From NCBI RefSeq assembly GCF_963583255.1, contig NC_084803.1, forward strand, positions 11,320,122-11,384,121: DNA of 64,000 nucleotides, read 5' to 3'. A program made the position numbers and the translations under genes. The DNA comes from Pyrus communis. Taxonomy: Eukaryota > Streptophyta > Magnoliopsida > Rosales > Rosaceae. The notes under the pieces were generated by a model that made no database searches, was not told the DNA's origin, and saw only the letters and a list, made by a program, of their open reading frames with translations. The number at the start of each line of letters is the position of its first letter. Positions within the stretch are counted from its first letter, which is position 1. This document shows positions 8,069 to 64,000 of this stretch, in pieces.

Positions 8069-8220
8069 CTGAAATAATTAAAAACCGATTTGAAATAAAG
8101 TTAGCAAACGAATAACATCAACTCACATTAAGGAATGTGATGTAGAACAAGATATGGGTCAATTTTTACTAAGAAATAAAGAAAATAAAATGTTTCAAAT
8201 TCTGGTAAAGAAGAATTAAA

Positions 8221-8620
8221 GTTGGAAAATATCAGATTCAATCAATATGGTGATGGGAAACATAGCAAGAAATATTATAGTGTCAAAAGTGGGCATTTTT
8301 TTTTTCCAAAAAAAAAGGGCATATAATATGTCGTGTTTGAAATAAATTTCAGACATTTCAATTGTCGTCCGACTAATGTCATTGTTATTTACTTTCGTTT
8401 TAATTCCTTAAGCCTTTTGAGTTGGAAAATATCAGATTCAATCAATATGGTGATGGGAAACATAGCAAGAAATATTATAGTGTCAAAAGTGGGCATTTTT
8501 TTTTTCCAAAAAAAAAGGGCATATAATATGTCGTGTTTGAAATAAATTTCAGACATTTCAATTGTCGTCCGACTAATGTCATTGTTATTTACTTTCGTTT
8601 TAATTCCCTAAGCCTTTTGA
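8221..8620. repeat. Near-perfect 200-bp tandem duplication
   Basis: Unit 1 (8221-8420) and unit 2 (8421-8620) both start with gttggaaaatatcagattca and end with agccttttga. The only difference I see is ccttaag versus ccctaag near the end. The near identity implies a recent duplication. It lies just upstream of a retrotransposon primer-binding site and may be part of that element's LTR. Confidence 0.9.
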
Positions 8621-8640
8621 GTTGTCCAAATGTGTTGTAA

Positions 8641-10487: not shown

Positions 10488-13400
10488 TTACAAAGTACGT
10501 TTTTCCATTCTCTCGAAGAAATAAAGATAGCCATTACCTTTGTCAGGGATGCCTCCCTCACAATACTCTCCAACCTTGTCATCATCAAAAACGACCCAGC
10601 TCCCACGTTTCAAGATGTGTGCAATATACCGACCATGATCAATAGAGGTTCCAAGGTGACTTATGAATCCAATAAGCTCATACCCTGCACGTAGCCATCT
10701 AGCAGTGAAAAACATACAAAACAAACCCATAACATATAAAGAATACTTTGATAGCTTATACCCTGCACGTAGCCTAACATGTGTATATTATCTTGTTTTA
10801 CAGGTGAGAATACTTTGATTGATTAATGGAATAGATCATATAAACACGCACCATGACTTTACATCTCGCGTCAATGTACGTACCATCTACATAGTTTTAG
10901 GTCAACAATTCAGTTAATACTTCTCAGCACATGCAGCCTTAATTTTGACGTCCATGTAGTTTGTGTGGTGTTTGTGCAAATTTCTCATATATATGTGCAG
11001 AAGAAAAAAGAAAGATTAGGTACGAAAAACTAACTTCCTCCATTTTGACCTCTCTCCCTGTGTAAATGGCCAATGTTTATGATATCATCAACATCTATTC
11101 TGACATCTGCATAAAGAGAGACAAGAAAATGAGAATCCTTCAAAACTCAACATAAATAGAAACAAACTGGGAAGCTAAAAGAAAATTACCAAGCTTGTTC
11201 TCCACCCCCGGCTCCTTTACGAACCTTTGCATGTGCATCACCAAGTACTTAGGGAACGAATTTAGACGTGCTTCCCTGCAGTTAATAAAAAAACAGGATG
11301 GTAAGAGACAGAGAGACAACATTTATTTTTGGTTTTTGTCGATATGGTTACTAAGAGACATCATCGTGTACTGACAATAATTTATCTTCATCGTAGAATG
11401 TTGACAAATTTTAGCAGACACAACATCATCAAGAGAATACATTGACACCAGAAAATAATCAGAAAGCTTACATAATTGTTTTCTTCTCTTTAGTGTACCA
11501 GTCACTCTGTTCATGCATTCTCTTTTCTGAAAGGTTGAAGTTCGAGGACGAAAGACAATTTCTTAGAGAAATGCTTGTTGAAGGACCGTCAGTTGGAATT
11601 ATTAGGGAAAGAGAAAAACAGCGACGGAAAAAAGGAACTCCAGAAATGGGACGAAGATCAATATCAAACGTGAAACCGCTCGAAGGATCAAACATAGGTC
11701 TCCCGCGCCTCCCACCGTCAGTATGAAGATTGTTAATTTGAATAAGAAAATGTAGAAAGAACTCATAAGCATCCTAAACGATAAAAAGGTTTCAGGTATT
11801 AGTAATATTAAAATTGAAGCAGTCAGAGCAAGAATGATAATAATTTTGAGTTTACAATATTGTCAAGTTGTACAAAAGTGTCTCATATAATAAAAATAGT
11901 GGAGAGCAAGAAGAATTAGGCAATTCACCTGTTCTTTCATGGAAGAAAATTTTGAATAGCTGGCTGCCATCGTCGTCTTAAACATTTGAGGCGGTATCCC
12001 TTCTTGTTTCTCTGATTGCTTCATGAAAGAACAGGAAATGATTAGTAAACACCAATGAGGACATCCTAACTCAATGATGATCATTGCAACTAGTATTATG
12101 ATTTAGTAGTATTCTTCTCTTGGGAGGTGTTAGGCTCAACTCCCGTAAATGGTACACGATGATCTAAGTTCTAACTGTAATAATTGGTATAAAATTCGTC
12201 ATTCATGGAAGAACCTAACATCTCTCCCTGTGTACAAGAGCCACTCACACCTTCTCGTTCCTCCCCCCCGCCGGGGGATTATACCCTCTTGTTTTTAATC
12301 TTATTTCTAATCTCAAAATGTATTTATAATCTTTTTGAATAACTATATATGTCCTTTTTACTAATTTTAAAATAGTTGATAAATATTTTAAAGCAGAAAA
12401 CTGATGGCATTGTCTAAAGTTGCAAACGTAGATGAAACCAATAAAAAAATAAATTAAATCGAAAACACAATGATTAAAATAGATTTGAGGTATAAACAAA
12501 GTTATCGAAAAATGTTTTTACAAGCATACACAAATAAGTGGGTGTCACAATCAAGTCCAAACTAATTGCGCTAGCAATACAAAAATTATATAGAGGATAA
12601 ACAAGCCAGTAGTGGAAATGAGTAGAAATATATGGGCAGAACAAATAAGAAAGCGTTCCGGACATACCTTTTTTACAGGAGCTAATGAGTATTCACCAGA
12701 TAGCAAACCATGCGCCAACTTAACTCTGTCATGCAAAACAAAAGATAAGTCTTTCCAAAAATGTGGATGAAGCAATCTACAGTATCTCATGATTAAGAAG
12801 AAAAGCCAGAAAAATAGAAACAAATTCAATAACCGAAATACACACCCATGTTTGCATTTGGAGTAGTGAGTATAAACCAGAAACTCTTATTCATAAACAA
12901 CAATCGAAATTGGTGACAATTAACACTAATAACTAGTAACACATCTTAGCGACAGAAATGCATTTAAAAAATCAATCCTTAGAATTCCCTACGTACTTAC
13001 GTTTGCATGTTCAAGTCTACAGAGGGGTCAGCTGTAGCCTTCTCAAATGCCTCTTTTAAACTTTGCACGTCGTAGAATCTGATGCATTGTGAAAATAAAA
13101 ATAATAAATAATATAGCTCATTCCCCTTTTTACACCGATTAGAAGAGGGAGGGAGGGAGGGAGAGGGGGGGGGGGGTGCGGGGTGGGGGTGGGGTGGGCG
13201 GTGTGGCGGAGGGATACTAACCCTACAGAGAACAAGGATGTTGATAACACAACTTGCATTGTCGCTGCCATATAGCTACTGCAAAACAAATCTCAAATCA
13301 GTGTAAACCCATTTAAGAGAAAGGACGCTTAAAAAAAAGAAGAAGCGTTTTCAGCAACATTACACGTACGAAAGCTACCTATTTCCCAAATTAGTAAGTC

Positions 13401-16400
13401 CAGTGTAACCTCCTCCAAAGGCCTTTTTTATTTGGCTCCCGTCAAAATTGGTATTCTGGTTAAGCTTTCTTTCAGCCTAATAACAAGAACGAAATTAGAA
13501 TGCCCTGTATCTTTTTTATAGTTATTAGATTAAACATTCATCCCTTATAAAGATTTGATTAAGGTGCTTTGATCAATTGCCACCTCAATAATTTTCTATT
13601 TATTTAATTTCCATATCATTAATTTAAATGCATTTATATAGAGGCATAAGGTAACTTAGCAACTAATTGCCTACAATATAGGAATTTAATTTCATGAACC
13701 CCCTTCTACACATTAAATGACATTTTTTTTAATAAAATAAAATAAAAAATTAATTAACTAATTCCTCATTACCTTATTATCATTATTTAAAAAAAATATA
13801 TCTTTCTATTAAAAATGTCTCAATAAAAAGTCTTCAATATATATTTTTTCACGTATAGATATATAAAAAATATACTTAAAACTTATGGTACATTTGAGAA
13901 CAAAAGTATCAACTTTTGGTATGTTTAGATTTCAAATGTACCGAGAAACCAAATTTACCAAAAATTCAAATGTACCATAAAACCAAATGCACCCATTGTT
14001 ATGTAATCCTTTTGATACATTTAGATTTCAAAGGTACAGATAAACCAAATGTATCCATTGTTAGGTAACTCTTTTGGTACGTTTAGATTCCAAATATACC
14101 AAAAGACCAAATGAACAAAAAATCACAAATGTACCACAAAACCAAATGTCTCTATTTGATAATCCTTTTGGTACATTTACATTCCAAATGTACCGAGAAA
14201 TACAAAAAATCAAATCCACTATAAAACTAAATGTGTCCATATTATAGGTAACTAGATGTAGCTATATAATCAAACAAATCTTTATTATGTGTTGGGTTTT
14301 CTAAATAATAAAATCTGACAATTTTTTTTGTATAAGTATTCTACTATATTCACACAAAAAAAAAAAAGTAAAATTATAACAAACAATAAAAAAATGCATA
14401 GAGATGGATAATAAATGCATAAATATAGGGATAAGAGGGGGAAAAAAATGAAATGTTTAGGAAAAGTCGTGAAAAACTAAAATTCTAAACAAAATAAACT
14501 TATGTGAAACACTGAAATTAATAACCAAAATTTTAGGAAAATGCTTGATCAAATTTTCAAAAGGAGTGTATGTTTAGTTTAAAAAATTAAAAAACGAAGC
14601 ACCTATATCAAAACGCCTCTATTAATTATTATTATCCAAAAAATAAATAAAATAATAAGTAAATTGCATTATTTGCTTCGCTTTCACTTACGATAACGTT
14701 GCTTTTTTTATTTTATTTTTTTTATTTTTTTTTATGATTGATTTGGAATTGTGGTGTTTTTGAAGAAAAAAAATTATTAAAAAATATAGAACATTAAATA
14801 TGTTTGATAGAAAAAAAGTGATTTTTTTTTAATGGTTGTCAATGACGGTAAAAAAACATAAAAAAGCAGAAGCAAGTTATACTTCTAAGTATTTTACAAA
14901 ATTACAATCATTGCTCATACATTATTCTCTTTAACAATTATTATATCACATTAAGTACCATATCATTTTTAGTCATTTAATATATTCACAACAATTTATA
15001 TAAAAGTTTACCAAACACTCGGGACACTTTTTTTTTTTTTTTTTTTTTTGTTAAAAGCATTAATAAAAAAAAGTTTACTAAAACTCAATAATTTTATTTT
15101 ATAACTGTTTATTCTCACAACATAACATAAACAGTTTTCTTAAAAAAACACAATAATACCAAACTGACTCTCAGTCAGTTTGGCCAATGATTGGGTTTTG
15201 TTAGCAGCGTAGAAAACCAAAACAAAATTACCAAATTAAGAGAAGTAAGTCGCTTCAGTTACCAAATTGACATAAAAACCAATACCGTATGTTCAGTTTG
15301 AAGCTGAAGCATCTCACTCCTCCTCCAACAGTAGAAATCAACCGCTTCCTTGAACTGCAATCATGAAATCTCATTAATTTTTTTTATTTTTAATTTTTCA
15401 CATAAAACAATTGTCTACGGAAAAAGGAAGAGGCACCTCATCTCGTAGGCTTCCATAAGGAATTTTTTGCACTTGTCCATCATCAGCGAATATGACCATC
15501 TCTTTAGTTATTTCATACACAGGTTCATCGCGGACAGATCCGACATTGTCTGTCATATCATATAAACAAATATGAGAAGAAAAGAGTAATATAAACAACT
15601 TTGCCATTTATTTATTTTTTCAATCTCAAAATTTTCAAGCACCCAGTGGTGGATGTACTTGGAAGCAAGGTCCCAGGACTACTCGGAAAGGGGGGGGGGG
15701 GGGGGGATGCACGTTGTAATCAAAGTAATTTCAGGTTTACTCGAAATCTAGAAAATATACATATGAAAACTAATCACACAAATCATTAATATCAAAGGAA
15801 AACTAATGAAAATAACTTGAAAACTTTGAGTTTTAACGAAAATGACCAAAAAATGTCGTAAGTGAATAGTACCAGATTGACTTTTTAGAGTAAAAATGTG
15901 ATTTTTCGTTAAAGTGAACAGTACAGGAAGCTTTTCGTTAAAACTCCCCAATATCAAGGATATAATATAGCGTAGAAAAAGACTAAAAAAACCTCAATCA
16001 TAACACAATCTTGACTAAAATTACCTGGCACAGAGCGCTTTCGAATTTTCTGGTTATTATCCTCAGAAGCAGACATATCTTTTTTCATTATATGCAAATA
16101 AACTGGATTTCCAGTCTTCTCGTGGTTCCAACGCACATAATTTTTTCCAAATGCAAGATATGTGGTTAAGTCGATAAACAACTCACCATCAGATTTCTGA
16201 AACTCATCAAAGAGACACCATATGTCAGAGAAATTGAAACCCTATATGGAAAGAAATTAAAAAAAAAGAAGAAGAAGAACGTACAAGACTACGGAAAGAC
16301 AGGCAACATTCATTGTAGACGCATGCGTTATGCTTGACGACATGGCGATCAACCCAAGTTTCATAGGATGGGGATCTTTCCTTGTATATGACTGGGTAAG

Positions 16401-17217
16401 AGGCACTGTGGACAAAATATTTCGAGCCCTTGAGTATCTTAGCAAAGCCCTTGTCTCCCCACTTATTCCCCCACGAATTCTTTATGATCCAATACTCCTT
16501 GCCAGTTATGTTGCATCTACCATAACCCACCACCGTAACAGTATGAAGATCATAATTATTATCATAAGTTTGAGGCTTGGGCTCATAAATTTCGAATACA
16601 TCTTTCCATTCAAAAAAGAAGTAGTCAATCGATATGACCATAGCAAGTGCTGGAATCGTCTTTAGGGCTTCCACTATCAATTTCTCATCGTATAAAATTT
16701 CAAAGTCATCTATATGGAATCTAGGAACTTTTCTTGGACCAGGTCTCCTGTTGTTGTAGGCTAGCTCTTTATATTTTTCACTTTCATAAGAGCATTGCTC
16801 TTCAGTAAGCATGCCTTCTTTTATAATGAAGTTATATGCCAATTCGGGCCAACATTGACCCCCAGAAATTACATCATCTGTCATTATGTAGGGAGAACCA
16901 ACGTATATAGCCAAATCTCGGGCGGAAAGAGTTTCTGCTTTCACATCCCCCCGGATGTGCCTATACGCTGCTTCCACGGTTTCAGCTACAGAAAAGCAAG
17001 TGCATGTGTCTTCAAGGAATTGCTCTCTAGCTACTAAGCTTACAGTGCCCCTGGTGGCCCAATTAATTATGTCGTCTTCACTGCCATAAGAAGAATATTG
17101 TATAAGTTATGACATTCATCAGGCAAGTTCTCTAGAACTACTCTTACACAACAAATTCATATTAATTAATTAAAGGAAAGTAATGGACCTGAAACGTGGA
17201 CGATCTTCCTCTTTCAT
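10488..17217 (-). CDS. Chimeric papain-like peptidase / UBP14-type ubiquitin protease-like protein, 14 exons
   Basis: Exons (minus strand): 17217-17189, 17080-16285, 16196-16025, 15549-15437, 15354-15286, 13476-13379, 13278-13222, 13078-13001, 12725-12668, 12009-11929, 11773-11472, 11275-11190, 11106-11035, 10684-10488. All junctions are GT-AG and phases agree, giving 735 aa with no stop. Residues 1-275 form a C1A papain-like domain with Gln30, Cys36 (EDTCTCFS), His189 (LHTVTVVGYG) and Asn211 (IIKNSWG). There is no signal peptide or propeptide. Residues 276-393 match the UBP14/USP5 region before the zinc finger (TYLAFGKNYV, EKTGNPVYLHI). Residues 394-735 match its catalytic domain (GYTGLTNLGNSSYMAATMQV, KLAHGLLSGEYS, GIPPQMFK, SFPKYLVMHMQRF, GSWVVFDDDKVG). 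Catalytic Cys is Ser427 and catalytic His is Arg689. The ZnF-UBP and both UBA domains are absent. The start is the first ATG that gives a phase-correct exon 1. Expression is unproven: it could be a young fusion gene, a read-through model of two genes, or a pseudogene without stops. Confidence 0.7.
10681..10774 (-). repeat. Short duplication of the last splice acceptor
   Basis: The block taccctgcacgtagcc occurs at 10681-10696 and again at 10759-10774. On the minus strand each copy supplies an acceptor, ctacgtgcag followed by ggta. Use of the upstream copy adds 78 bp (26 codons) and keeps the reading frame into YELIGFISHLG. Two isoforms of the chimeric gene are therefore possible. The downstream acceptor fits the UBP14 family length better. 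Confidence 0.6.
13141..13210 (+). other. G-rich tract in an intron, potential G-quadruplex
   Basis: The plus strand has repeated gggagggagggag, a run of ten or more G, and ggggtgggggtggggtgggcgg. Many G-runs of three or more with short loops meet the usual G4 pattern. On the transcribed minus-strand gene this is a C/T-rich intron lying between exons 13278-13222 and 13078-13001, and could act as an extended polypyrimidine tract. Confidence 0.6.
13505..15280. other. Long AT-rich intron of the chimeric gene, missing-exon region
   Basis: This intron occupies the place where UBP14 genes carry the zinc-finger UBP exons. No CxxC...GGNNHA-like coding was found on the minus strand. It contains an imperfect tandem repeat (13900-14210), homopolymer A and T tracts and no recognisable gene. 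Confidence 0.5.
13900..14210. repeat. Imperfect tandem repeat, about 120-bp units
   Basis: Units recur three times with the order ttttggtacatttagattcc, aaatgtaccgagaaaccaaa and aaatgtayccattgttaggtaa. Each unit is internally near-palindromic (ggtacattt and aaatgtacc). It lies inside the long intron of the minus-strand chimeric gene. Confidence 0.65.
15690..15706 (+). repeat. Poly-G run of 17
   Basis: An uninterrupted run of 17 G follows tactcggaaa. It lies in the intron between exons 16196-16025 and 15549-15437, next to a segment (cagtggtggatgtacttgg) that resembles the end of the TIR element at 33839. Run length is prone to sequencing error. Confidence 0.7.
15800..15950. repeat. Dispersed repeat family B, copy 1 (intronic)
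   Basis: The stretch reads aaaactttgagttttaacga, then a segment with gattgactttttagagtaaa, then cgttaaagtgaacagtac and ttttcgttaaaactc. It is shared with 35560-35700 and, in the opposite orientation and more diverged, with 61745-61905. The ends gttttaacga and tcgttaaaac are inverted, so it is probably a MITE. Confidence 0.75.
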
Positions 17218-42635: not shown

Positions 42636-45600
42636 TAAATTCTTAAAAAATATATATATATATATATAAATTCGTTTACTAAGAAAAGAATGTTCGGATT
42701 TGGAGGCCTGCAATTCATCTAATTTTTTCTTGTATGGAATACAATCTGCAGTCTTATTTGGTGATTCTTGACATTTTTTGAATCAGATGGAAAAGGAAAA
42801 GTTTTGAATGCAAATCACTGAACCAAGGCATCCCATATGATTTAAGTTCTGCAAGAATTATATGTGCAGAGCAGAAATTTGCAATCTTGATTTGGATAAT
42901 ATTTCTTGGGATTTTCTTACAAGCTGAGGCGGTTTGACTGGTTTGATCCGACTGAATTGGTAAAAGGTCTATCTTGTTGCTAAACTTGGCTCGGATTGAA
43001 TTTGTTCTTGCAGGATATGGGAGACCTTTCTTGTTGTTCTGGTCATCTATACTGCTTGGGTGTCACCGTTCGAGTTTGGTTTCCTTAAAGGACCAGGAGG
43101 ACCGCTCTCCATTACTGATAATGTTGTCAATGGTTTCTTTGCTATTGATATCATTCTCACATTCTTTGTGGCTTACCTGGACAAGACCACATATTTACTT
43201 GTTGACGATCGAAAAAAGATTGGTTGGAAGTATGCAAGATCCTGGTTGATTTTCGATGTCATATCCACAATCCCATCTGAACTTGCTACGAGGATCTTTC
43301 CTAAATCTGTGCAGTCTTATGGCTTTTTCAACATGCTTCGTCTTTGGCGTCTACGAAGAGTTAGTGCCCTATTTTCCAGGTATGGCAATAGTTTTTCCCA
43401 GCAGTTTTTTTTACTGCAAAAATGCATATAAGCAGAAGTTTTTCTTTATGTTAACCTCACCACTATTCTTGCTTGAACAGATTGGAGAAAGATAGGAATT
43501 ATAATTACTTTTGGGTTCGCTGTGCAAAACTTATTTGCGTAAGTATTTATGATGGTTCTGGGATTACTTACATGAACAAAATGCATTTGTTATATGGCAT
43601 CACCATCTGATGGGATTTCGATGCTCCTTTGTAGGTCACTCTTTTTGCCATCCATTGTGCTGGATGCTTCTATTACCTTATAGCTGCACGCAATCATGAC
43701 CCTGCGAAAACATGGATGGGAGTAGAAATCCTAGGACAAAGCCTGTGGATTCGGTATGTGACTGCAGTTTATTGGTCTATCACAACGCTAACAACAGTTG
43801 GATATGGAGACCTGCATCCAGTCAATGCACGGGAGATGATCTTTGACATATTCTACATGTTCTTCAACCTGGGATTGACATCATACTTAATTGGAAATAT
43901 GACCAACTTGGTTGTCCACGGGACCAGTCGAACTAGAAAATTTGTGAGTAAATTCATATTCACTTAATTGGATTTTTGCAATAAAATTAATTAAATGTGA
44001 AAATATTAATTTAGTTGCTTCTGTTTACCAGAGGGATACCATACAAGCTGCCTCCAGTTTTGCGCAGAGGAACCAACTACCTCTACGCCTGCAGGATCAG
44101 ATGCTTGCACACTTGTGTCTGAAGTTCAGAACGGATTCTGAAGGACTGCAGCAACAAGAGACCCTTGATTCCCTTCCTAAGGCCATCCGCTCAAGTATTT
44201 CACATTATCTGTTTTACTCTCTTGTAGATAAGGTGTACTTGTTTCATGGGGTTTCAAATGACTTGCTCTTTCAGTTGGTAAGTTCAAACCCAATCTCAAA
44301 GTTTTCAATCAAATTCTTCTCTCTAGTGAACTTGTCCGAACTTTTCAAAGTATCTTGTGTAGATGTTTGGTTTAAATTCTTATTCTTCTTCTGAATTCAA
44401 AGGTCTCGGAGATGAAAGCCGAGTATTTTCCTCCCAAAGAAGATGTAATCTTGCAGAACGAAGCACCCACAGATTTCTACATACTTGTCACTGGTGCTGC
44501 GGTAACAATTTCATCTTTCTTTTTCTTTCATTTCAAAGACTTTATAACTTTCGTATTCTCTTTATTTCAATTTCTTTTCTGAACAACCCAATATAATATT
44601 TGAATTACTTTACAGGATTTAGTGGTTCTCAAAAATGGAGTTGAACAGGCAAGTCTAACACTTGAATAGAAAGGATATCTTTTGCATTCGGTAGTTGCTT
44701 TGACCGTGGTAACTGATATATAAGATTATGAGTAACATTATTTTTATAAATTGCAGGTCATTGGTGAGGCAAAATCTGGTGATCTTATTGGTGAGATCGG
44801 GGTACTTTGTTACAGACCACAGCTCTTTTCAGTTAGAACAAAAAGATTGAGTCAGCTTCTACGGCTGAATCGTACTACATTCTTAAACATAGTTCAAGCT
44901 AATGTTGGAGATGGGACTGTGATCATGAATAATCTCCTGCAGGTGAGCTTATCTGATCCAGAAGTTAAAGAAACCTATTTATTTCTAAGAATTTGTTTGG
45001 ATGATGATTTTTGACAAGTTGCACTCTACATTGCGTTTCTTTCTTGGTGGGTTGCAGCATTTGAAGGACCTCAAGGACCCAATTATGGAAGGCGTTCTGT
45101 TGGAGACGGAGAACATGCTAGCTCGGGGTAGAATGGACCTACCTCTCAGTCTATGCTTTGCAGCAATCAGAGGAGACGAGTTGTTGTTAAATCAGTTGCT
45201 GAAACGAGGTCTGGATCCAAATGAATCGGATAATAACGGGAGGTCTGCTCTGGTATGCAAAGTCCTATGCTCTTGATTTTACCCTTTTTCTAGAGCATCA
45301 AACTCTAAATACTAACACACATTCTATGTTTCCTCCTTGTTCTGTGAAAAACCAGCATATAGCATCATCGAAAGGAAGCGAAAACTGCGTTCTTCTTCTG
45401 CTAGACTACGGGGCGGATCCTAACAGCAGAGGTACTATCCAAACCTTTAACAAATCATTAAGTTAAACCATCATTAAACATATAATTGTTGACGTTAAGA
45501 GTAAATTATAATATATCCTAATGCAAGAAAGTCCGTTCTATTATTTCGCTAAGACTTATCGTCAATCATGCTATATCGTAGGCTCCCTACGCGATAAGGA

Positions 45601-47504
45601 GTAATCATTTAATAAACATAAGAGTTAAGATCAAATTAATATAATCCGTCAATTATGTGTTGACTTTCCATAATTAAACTATCAACTACTTGAGTCAATT
45701 ATTTGTTTCAAATTTACCAAAAATAAAAATAAAAAATTTGTTTGTTTCGAATTATTATATTTAATGTTTAAAAATTCTGGTTGACTTCGTAATCTTATCC
45801 AGAAGGCATGCATGTGCCTCCCACATCATGCTATCTGACTAGTAGATAAATCTCTCATTAGAGTAATATTAAGTTATTTAGGCTTTCGAATCTGTTTATC
45901 TTATCCCTTTCCTGTTTAATATATCTTTAAAATATAGGAGTCTGATTCTTCTAGTTTTTTTATTCAACCATGCAAACTAGAGTGAAATAAAAATCATCTT
46001 TTGAAAAGAAATTTTTGTCTCATAGGTCGTGCAAATAGAAATTTGTTGTGAATTTGTCTGCATAGAAACGTGAGTTATGTTAGTTGACCAAAATTATGTA
46101 CCACATCTTTGCACTTAGATTAGGATCTCCGTCTCCTTTTTTTTCTAAATTAAAGTAGTTTAGAACGTCGTTTTGTCAAAAAGAATTAAAGTTTTATACT
46201 TAAATTTTACTTATTAAGAAATAATTGGCAACATGTATGCAAGTAGCCTTGTATTATTTAAGTGAAGGAAGTCGATGCATTTCCTTTTTTCTTTCCAAAG
46301 ATAGATCGTCTCCGTTGACTTGATGATATGATTTGTAATGAAATACTTCTGCGTGCGCATGTATGTCTGCACATGTCTTGTTTATTATGTAATCAGAAGT
46401 GATTGAAAAAAGAGTCATATTTTTTAATGTGGGCGGTTGTTCCCGTTAGACCTCGTCAACTCTCCACAGCTTGCCATCTGCGTTGGACCGCCCTTTTAAT
46501 GTACAGCTGATTTAACTGCTGGTTAATTACGCGTTTACTGTATGATTTAAGATAAACTTTTGGGTTTAACATTAACGTAGTTTTGTTTTCATGCATTGGC
46601 AGACTCAGATGGGAATGTACCACTTTGGGAGGCAATACTGAATGGTCATGAGCAAATTGCCAAGCTGCTGTTAGACAATGGTGCAAATTTGAACTCAGGG
46701 GATGTTGGTCAATTTGCCTGCACTGCTGCTGAGCAAACCAGGTTGGACTTGCTCAAGGAAATTGCCCGACATGGCGGGGATGTCACGCGTCCGAAAAGCA
46801 ACGGAACCACAGCTCTGCACGTTGCAGTATCTGAAGACAACGTAGACATTGTCAAGTACCTCTTGGACCAGGGCGCTGACATTGATAAACCCGACCTCCA
46901 TGGCTGGACCCCGAGAGCCCTAGCGGAACAACAAGGACACGAAGACATAAAGACCCTTTTCCACTCTAGTAAAGAACCCAAAGTTGCCGTTACCATTCCT
47001 GAACACAAGAGTGGAATCCGGTTCCTTGGGAGGTTTACAAGCGAGCCAACTATCCACCCTCCACCCACGGACAGCTCATTTTCAGGAGCAGAGGGAGGAT
47101 CATGGGTCAGAAATCGCCCGAGGCGTAGGACTAATAACTTCCACAACTCTTTGTTTGGCATGATGTCAGCTGCCCACATAGGGGAGAAAGACTTGTTTCT
47201 CTCTGTTGCGGAGACGAAAAGTCCTAAGAGCTACGTAAGCAACGCTGCTGCGAGGGTGACAATTAGTTGCCCTGAAAAGGGTGAAGTGAAAGGCAAACTT
47301 GTGCTGCTCCCACTGAGTTACGAGGAGTTGCTTGAGATGGGGACAAAGAAATTCAGACTCTCACCGGCGAAAATCGTGAGCAAAGATGGAGCCGAAATCG
47401 ACAATATAGATGTAATTAGAGACGGTGATCATCTTGTTTTTGTAAGTGCTGGTGAATCACAACAACAACAAGAACCTAACAGCCAAAATCCTTCAAGTAA
47501 TTAA
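41652..47504 (+). CDS. AKT1: AKT1-type Shaker inward-rectifying potassium channel
   Basis: Eleven exons: 41652-41842, 43014-43379, 43481-43538, 43635-43943, 44032-44277, 44403-44501, 44616-44648, 44757-44942, 45058-45252, 45356-45431, 46603-47504. All phases agree, giving 886 aa (Arabidopsis AKT1 about 857). Family order is complete: N-terminal [21 protein letters not shown]1 from residue 65, S4 with basic repeat ([14 protein letters not shown], about 171-184), pore with TTVGYGD (258-264), C-linker, cyclic-nucleotide-binding domain (about 385-500), ankyrin repeats (about 510-720) and a C-terminal KHA domain ending with [11 protein letters not shown]. In plants AKT1 mediates root K+ uptake at the plasma membrane, activated by CIPK23-CBL1/9. 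The donor after exon 7 is GC rather than GT (cag|gcaagt). Intron 1 carries (AT)n tracts (42613-42668) and intron 10 is 1.17 kb. A polyadenylation-like aataaaa lies at 47772. Confidence 0.95.
45432..46602 (+). other. AKT1 intron 10, longest after intron 1
   Basis: No coding or clear transposon ends were found in this 1.17-kb intron. It separates ankyrin-coding exons 10 and 11, with gt and ag ends (gaggtacta; ggcagactc). The small minus-strand frame at its end is a shadow. Confidence 0.6.
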
Positions 47505-60079: not shown

Positions 60080-60508
60080 TTAAACGTTCTTACCTTCTAA
60101 ATGGCAATTGTGACTTTTCAACCCTTGTATTTTTCGTTTATTCACGTGCACCCATCGCGACAAATTTGATGAAAATCCATCGAGGACCCGAATAGTAGAC
60201 AACACTTTGCAAAAGGCAGTTTTTTCTTCTCTTTTCAACATGAACAATGCTGGAGGTCGAAATATTCTATTTCCTTCTCTTCGTGAGTGTTGACTACGTC
60301 TTATTTTCAAGACTTCAAGATTTGCATGTGCAGCCAATCCATCTTTAGACTTTTCTATATCTAGTAATGTTCCAACCATATTGTCACATATATTCTTCTC
60401 GATATGCATAACATCAAGATTGTGTCTAATCAACAGATGCCTCCAATAAGGAAGAGAAAACACGGGGAGGGTATATAAAGGCCACCAATGGTCGCCTATA
60501 ACCGACAC
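60080..60508 (-). pseudogene. CACTA transposase (TNPD/Transposase_21-type) fragment
   Basis: The frame contains FSLPYWRHLLIRHNLDVMHI, EKNICDNMVGTLLDIEKSKD and GLAAHANLEVLK. It continues with PPALFMLKREEKTAFCKVLS, TIRVLDGFSSNLSRWVHVNK and RKIQGLKSHNCH. This is the conserved HNLDVMHIEKNVCDN...GLKSHDCH core of plant En/Spm transposases. It ends abruptly at both sides (VSVIGDH and LEGKNV). A close copy with an internal deletion lies at 63715-64000. Confidence 0.85.
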
Positions 60509-63165: not shown

Positions 63166-63714
63166 AAAACATTCACTAATGACCCAACCAATTTAACAAC
63201 CAAAAATAATCGAACTATATAAATATTCGTTAATTAATGTCAACATAATGTGGCTTAGCCAAACTCCTCTCGCTTTAGTGTAAAAATATTAATGTACTAG
63301 AAAAATATCAATATTATGCTAGAAGTTAATTCACACCGCAAACATAGACTAGTTGACAAGATATGGTAGCTTACAAAGAAGAGAAAACAGGAGTAGCGTT
63401 CCTGGTTATGAAAAGTAGTAGACAACTACATATACTTAACATATATATAACGAAGAATAAAAATGAAAATGACATTGTTTTTTTTTTTGTACACATTGTT
63501 TAGAAAAATAATCAAATTCCCATATGCATAATCCTACAATTTACGGATGACCAATCGAAATTACAAAACCAACAGGTTATAGATTCTCCCCTCATCAAAA
63601 TACATATAACTAGAATACAAAATAACATGAATTGTCTCCGCCATGTCTGCTGCAACTTCCACTCATGCTGAAGAATATGATTGGAAATTCAAGCCCCTTC
63701 TTCGCCATTTCCAC
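63166..63714. other. Intergenic, no gene recognised
   Basis: AT-rich with a poly-T run near 63476-63488. It probably belongs in part to the CACTA copy beginning to the right. Confidence 0.3.
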
Positions 63715-64000
63715 GTCAAATTTGATGAATATCCATCGGGGACCTGAAAGGTAGATAACACTTTGCAAAAGGCAGTTTTTTTTTTTCTCTTTTCAACATG
63801 AACAATGCTGGATGTCAAAATGTTCTATGTCCTTCTCTTTGTGGGTGTTGACTACGTCTTATGTTCAAGACTTCAAGATCTACACGTGCAGCCAATCCAT
63901 CTTTAGACTTTTCTATATCTAGCAATGTTCCAACCACATTGTCACATATAAGGAAGAGAAAACACGGGGAGGGTATATAAAGGCCACCAATCGTCGCCCA
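63715..64000 (-). pseudogene. Second CACTA transposase fragment, runs off the window
   Basis: It matches 60140-60508 block by block (gtcaaatttgatgaatatccat; aggcagttttttt; gactacgtcttatgttcaag; gcagccaatccatctttaga; ggaagagaaaacacggggag). It lacks about 60 bp between gtcacatata and aggaagag, which removes the RHNLDVMHIEKN core. Point changes and homopolymer growth add frameshifts. Confidence 0.8.

Follow-up and report, generated by a model that had tools for sequence, protein, structure and literature searches.

The window, a stretch of 64,000 nucleotides from Pyrus communis, carries on its minus strand a chimeric gene model in which a papain-like (C1A) peptidase domain is followed, in the same frame, by sequence of the deubiquitinase UBP14 type. 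The 14-exon chain, running from 17217 to 10488, was rebuilt from sequence motifs and is consistent in phase over all 13 introns. An earlier note on this DNA had described a stop-free minus-strand frame of 14 exons with GT-AG introns, and the rebuild from the sequence agrees with this description, except that the frame comprises 738 codons and not the 735 originally counted. A search of the 64-kb window with the fusion protein gave no significant match to a second copy of either half. The features of the locus are listed below, in the direction of reading.

10488..17217, minus strand: chimeric gene model of 14 exons and 738 codons; 13 of 13 introns GT-AG, no in-frame stop
17189..17217, minus strand: exon 1, ATG and 9 codons (MKEEDRPRF); same start in all four Malus clusters
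16285..17080, minus strand: exon 2, encoding in one frame the mature C1A domain, a linker and the first part of the UBP14 variant zinc finger (Pfam; papain-like fold model)
17020..17022, minus strand: Gln30 of the C1A domain, kept
17002..17004, minus strand: Cys36, the C1A nucleophile (alignment to C1A relatives)
16543..16545, minus strand: His189 of the C1A domain, kept
16477..16479, minus strand: Asn211 of the C1A domain, kept
about 16330..16387, minus strand: fusion point, within exon 2; C1A homology ends at about aa 241 and UBP14 homology begins at about aa 260
16197..16284, minus strand: intron 2, 88 bp, within UBP14-homologous sequence (Pfam and UBP14 alignment)
16025..16196, minus strand: exon 3, the remainder of the variant UBP zinc finger, PF17807 (Pfam and UBP14 alignment)
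13477..15285, minus strand: intron 5, 1809 bp, with tandem arrays; near here the protein lacks the zf-UBP stretch found in UBP14
13275..13277, minus strand: UCH nucleophile Cys changed to Ser (aa 427; UBP14 alignment), Ser in all four Malus clusters too
12019..12667, minus strand: intron 9, inside which the annotated protein P0133 begins, at ATG 12084, to continue into exon 10
11472..11773, minus strand: exon 11, UCH domain; the Malus model P0004 terminates here in a different frame
10488..10684, minus strand: exon 14, the last, which includes the stop and what was once the His box; agrees with P0133
10629..10631, minus strand: UCH catalytic His changed to Arg (aa 692; UBP14 alignment)

Pfam assigned three domains to the 738-codon protein, namely Peptidase_C1 (PF00112) at aa 28-230 with 72.5 bits (cut-off 20.7), the variant UBP zinc finger (PF17807) at aa 260-314 with 52.7 bits (cut-off 22.6) and UCH (PF00443) at aa 418-730 with 126.6 bits (cut-off 23.9). 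Exon 2 sits within an open stretch of 293 codons, and alignment to 132 UBP14 sequences likewise places the beginning of UBP14 homology in this exon, near aa 260. The single open frame that the earlier note had seen joining the C1A domain to UBP14-type sequence is therefore real, but the junction does not fall at the 88-bp intron, where the note had put it, as both Pfam and the alignment have the variant zinc finger beginning upstream, at about aa 260, in exon 2. As PF17807 homology begins upstream of it, the 88-bp intron interrupts sequence that is already homologous to UBP14. The frame holds no methionine between aa 157 and 312, and translation in the fusion frame therefore reaches the zinc finger only by way of the C1A domain. 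No description of a C1A-UBP14 fusion was found in the open-access literature, in keeping with the note's remark that no described plant protein combines the two folds.

The C1A half has the mature-domain fold of the papain family together with its Gln/Cys/His/Asn tetrad, which is intact in pear and in those apple models that include the residues in question. It differs from the family in having neither a signal peptide nor a prodomain: the model start lies only 9 codons before exon 2, and no prodomain was detected by Pfam. Further differences flank the nucleophile, where Glu33 replaces the Cys three residues before it and Thr37 replaces the Trp after it. The cysteines that pair in papain are mostly substituted in the pear C1A half, Glu33 being one example. 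The apple fusion has a Cys at 182, as has one aligned relative. An AlphaFold2 model of the C1A half is papain-like with modest confidence (pLDDT 66.6, pTM 0.74), and chymopapain ranked first when the model was compared by Foldseek (TM 0.78 by target length). Of the 12 matches to the C1A half, three came from the fusion lineage itself and the next was a fruit bromelain-like protein; the source of this half was not found among these 12 matches, the best of which beyond the fusion lineage is 31% identical.

The remainder of the protein shares with plant UBP14 and animal USP5 (isopeptidase T) the variant zinc finger and the UCH core, which are collinear over 471 aligned residues. It is about 50% identical to UBP14 of pear, apple and rose (237 of the 471 aligned residues for pear UBP14), and USP5 is its best match among solved structures. 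Descent from UBP14 is borne out by the matches listed, all of which, with the exception of the fusion lineage and P0133, have the domain set of UBP14. With the whole fusion protein as query, 116 of the 120 matches listed (of 458) had this domain set and the other four were the Malus fusions, and with the UBP half alone P0133 was the one further close match among 120 listed of 398. The fusion differs from UBP14 and USP5 by its N-terminal C1A domain, by the changes of Cys to Ser and His to Arg, and by having no zf-UBP (PF02148) or UBA domain, neither of which was detected by Pfam or is present in the UBP14 alignment. C427S and H692R were scored against conserved columns of the 132 UBP14 sequences, which are the proteins of 700-830 aa among 150 fetched; the Cys and His at these columns we take, as established knowledge of the family, to be the catalytic residues. 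The deubiquitinase half is thus predicted to be catalytically dead, and a reading of the fusion as two working proteases fails on the loss of the catalytic Cys and His from the UBP half. For comparison, the available part of one report describes Arabidopsis UBP14 as containing zf-UBP and UBA domains, with ubp14 mutants arresting at the globular embryo stage (PMC11236618). Pseudo-deubiquitinases are able to serve as scaffolds or activators, according to the accessible portion of PMC10919355, and the fusion is likewise a member of the deubiquitinase family without catalytic residues; USP39 and USP52 are named in that portion, which mentions no such protein joined to a papain-type peptidase.

Four hypothetical-protein clusters of Malus domestica (P0001-P0004) each carry PF00112, PF17807 and PF00443 in one frame, the fusion proteins being ACFX10_017681, TB2_017346, ACFX13_017985 and PS2_017370. 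They share the three Pfam domains, the start and the exonic junction with the pear model, and the MKE.. start, the exon 1/2 splice and the exon 2/3 splice match in all four. They differ from the pear model in being shorter and in 47 of the 662 compared sites. Middle exons are partly skipped in some of the four models, and none of them reaches exon 14, which carries the UCH His. P0001 leaves out most of exon 11 and stops at a point where the pear sequence would continue into intron 13. In P0002 and P0003 about 50 C1A residues are missing, and both stop where the pear sequence would continue into intron 11. P0004 omits exons and terminates within exon 11 in another frame, in a frameshift-like manner. 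The largest contigs of the apple fusion clusters measure 56-58 Mb, and those of canonical apple UBP14 (P0007, P0017) 37.5-38.5 Mb. The apple fusion and canonical UBP14 are probably located on different chromosomes, which we assume to be 15 and 2, respectively.

In pear, the NCBI protein P0133 (UBP14-like, Pyrus communis, 270 aa) is exact to the translation of the window from the ATG at 12084, in intron 9, through exons 10-14, and confirms these exons and their four splices letter for letter. It is a UBP-only protein, without the C1A half and exons 1-9. The first 22 residues of P0133 are coded in intron 9 (12084-12019). Because P0133 opens with residues from this intron, the public annotation of the pear locus either misses part of the gene or records an alternative start. 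In a related copy, P0123, the C1A domain is joined in frame from about aa 219 to about aa 322. This copy has thus lost the end of the C1A domain, the junction and the variant zinc finger, and it has NSSG in place of the NSWG motif; of 153 residues, 9 differ from pear and 25 from apple P0004. Two other proteins, P0121 and P0122, read through into the junction intron, as unspliced DNA would.

The fusion evidently predates the apple-pear split, because four Malus proteins have the same fusion and the same junction, and the earlier note's alternative of a young fusion falls with the identical junction in apple. Among annotated proteins, only apple and pear are so far known to have the fusion. A genome duplication shared by apple and pear has a Ks of about 0.16 and lies well before the apple-pear split, as stated in the available part of PMC6901071; a numeric apple-pear Ks was not found in the literature, including the available parts of PMC6901071 and PMC4336698. 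In a tree of the UBP half, the fusion has a branch length of about 1.9 substitutions per site, and the best tree places it beside Nicotiana with a bootstrap of 50. AU tests rejected none of the placements inside Rosaceae (p-AU 0.48), inside Maleae (0.25) and outside the other core eudicots (0.11). An origin outside Rosaceae was considered and set aside, as the Nicotiana placement has a bootstrap of 50 only and trees with a Rosaceae or Maleae origin are also compatible; we read this placement as long-branch noise.

The pattern of change between apple and pear was derived from protein differences only, in gene models picked for open frames. The apple-pear count omits aligned positions 548-630 and 673 onward of P0001 and P0004 from 575, as gene-model artefacts, and 76 of the 738 sites have no apple counterpart. 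The consensus-site tests compare aa 1-673 minus 621-631 (the 662 sites) and may differ by one or two positions from the apple-pear count; 5 of the 39 sites in the linker stretch differ between pear and the apple consensus. Changed sites number 27 of 236 in the C1A half (aa 1-236) versus 15 of 387 in aa 276-672 (Fisher p 4e-4). The halves share one locus and differ in change, and therefore at least one half is not neutral. Within the UBP half, 2 of 196 UBP14-consensus sites have changed versus 15 of 208 others (p 0.002), and this avoidance of consensus sites holds under exon-stratified permutation (p 0.005). Compared with random mutation, the one-step changes of the UBP half (n=17) are on the conservative side (p 0.013), whereas those of the C1A half (n=24) are as radical as expected by chance (p 0.53); for the whole protein (n=44) conservativeness is not significant (p 0.13). 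The C1A half shows a weaker avoidance, with 2 of 58 family-shared sites changed versus 25 of 178 others (p 0.03), in a family set of nine proteins that are 23-31% identical and in which some "shared" sites (e.g. aa 1, 3 and 7) reflect alignment chance. In neutral simulations the observed C1A change is reached at a DNA distance of about 0.05-0.06 and the UBP change at about 0.02. Neutral drift of the UBP half to about 50% identity with UBP14, simulated with indels left out, introduced 12-13 stops on average; at K 0.30, none of 100 runs stayed free of stops, and the same held at K 0.35. The earlier note's proposal of retained function is supported by the substitution pattern for the UBP-derived half.

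Our best reading of these sequences is that the UBP14 core is probably constrained although inactive, and that the C1A domain is changing faster with its tetrad complete. With a probability of roughly one half, we consider the locus to be a chimeric gene that predates the separation of apple and pear and has been retained with a pseudo-deubiquitinase module. A C1A domain without signal peptide or prodomain would have become joined, within a single exon, to the variant zinc finger and UCH domain from a UBP14 duplicate that had diverged fast. The UBP half would have been retained without cleaving activity, as a module that most likely binds ubiquitin or a UBP14 partner. The C1A half would be located in the cytosol or nucleus, either as a protease aimed by the UBP module or as a tolerated leader. 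That the C1A half acts as such an aimed protease is a doubtful prediction, far less likely than the retention of a chimeric gene with a pseudo-deubiquitinase. The most specific form of the idea, a ubiquitin-guided protease of apples and pears in which an inactive UBP14 core kept by selection would hold ubiquitin or a UBP14 partner, bring a cytosolic papain domain lacking a prodomain to its targets and so provide directed proteolysis that bypasses the proteasome, is speculative and rather improbable. Arguing against a working fusion, the pear NCBI protein P0133 covers exons 10-14 only, from the ATG in intron 9, none of the four apple models reaches exon 14 and one of these is frameshift-like, and the related copy P0123 has lost the junction region.

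The same observations invite the tentative alternative that the locus is a dying chimeric pseudogene, both halves being relics whose frame stays open by luck or by the choice of exons and yields no product. Such a decay would fit the loss of catalytic residues and domains, the shortened and mutually different apple models, the existence of a deletion copy in P0123 and the random look of the C1A changes, and the lack of stops between apple and pear counts only weakly against it, having a probability of about 0.09 under neutrality. Against it stand the slow change of the UBP half and its avoidance of UBP14-consensus sites, as well as a divergence from UBP14 that is too large for neutral drift with an open frame in a simulation from which indels were left out. 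An unlikely further alternative is that only the UBP part is used, from a short transcript starting near intron 9, and that the C1A exon is a relic sharing the frame by chance. P0133 is what such a transcript would encode, its 270 residues being exact from ATG 12084 through exon 14, and the UBP half is indeed less changed than the C1A half. However, the avoidance of consensus sites is found upstream of this ATG, at aa 259-490 (1 of 117 consensus sites changed versus 11 of 115 others, p 0.003), and falls short of significance in aa 491-673 alone (1 of 79 versus 4 of 93, p 0.38), and because of this regional check the UBP-only reading was given less weight. The apple models, moreover, begin at the C1A ATG and hold the three domains in one frame, and the C1A tetrad is intact wherever a model includes it. 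If the retained chimeric gene is indeed expressed as protein, a papain-type peptidase and a conserved pseudo-deubiquitinase are combined in two crop genera. The locus is also an example of an enzyme core that has seemingly been kept by selection after loss of its active site. If the protein is not made, the locus is a warning of chimeric "hypothetical proteins" in plant annotations, with halves that have different fates.

Elsewhere in the 64-kb window, scans with Rfam and for tRNA gave no matches. A tandem pair of about 200 bp at 8220-8624 is 99% identical, a recent duplication, and two 237-bp stretches at 60158-60392 and 63714-63950 are 91% identical. The former of these overlaps an ORF without a Pfam match, which to us looks like a CACTA-type transposon protein. 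On the plus strand, open stretches at 43000-47504 carry Ion_trans, ankyrin and KHA domains and represent a plant Shaker-type potassium channel gene, presumably AKT1-like.
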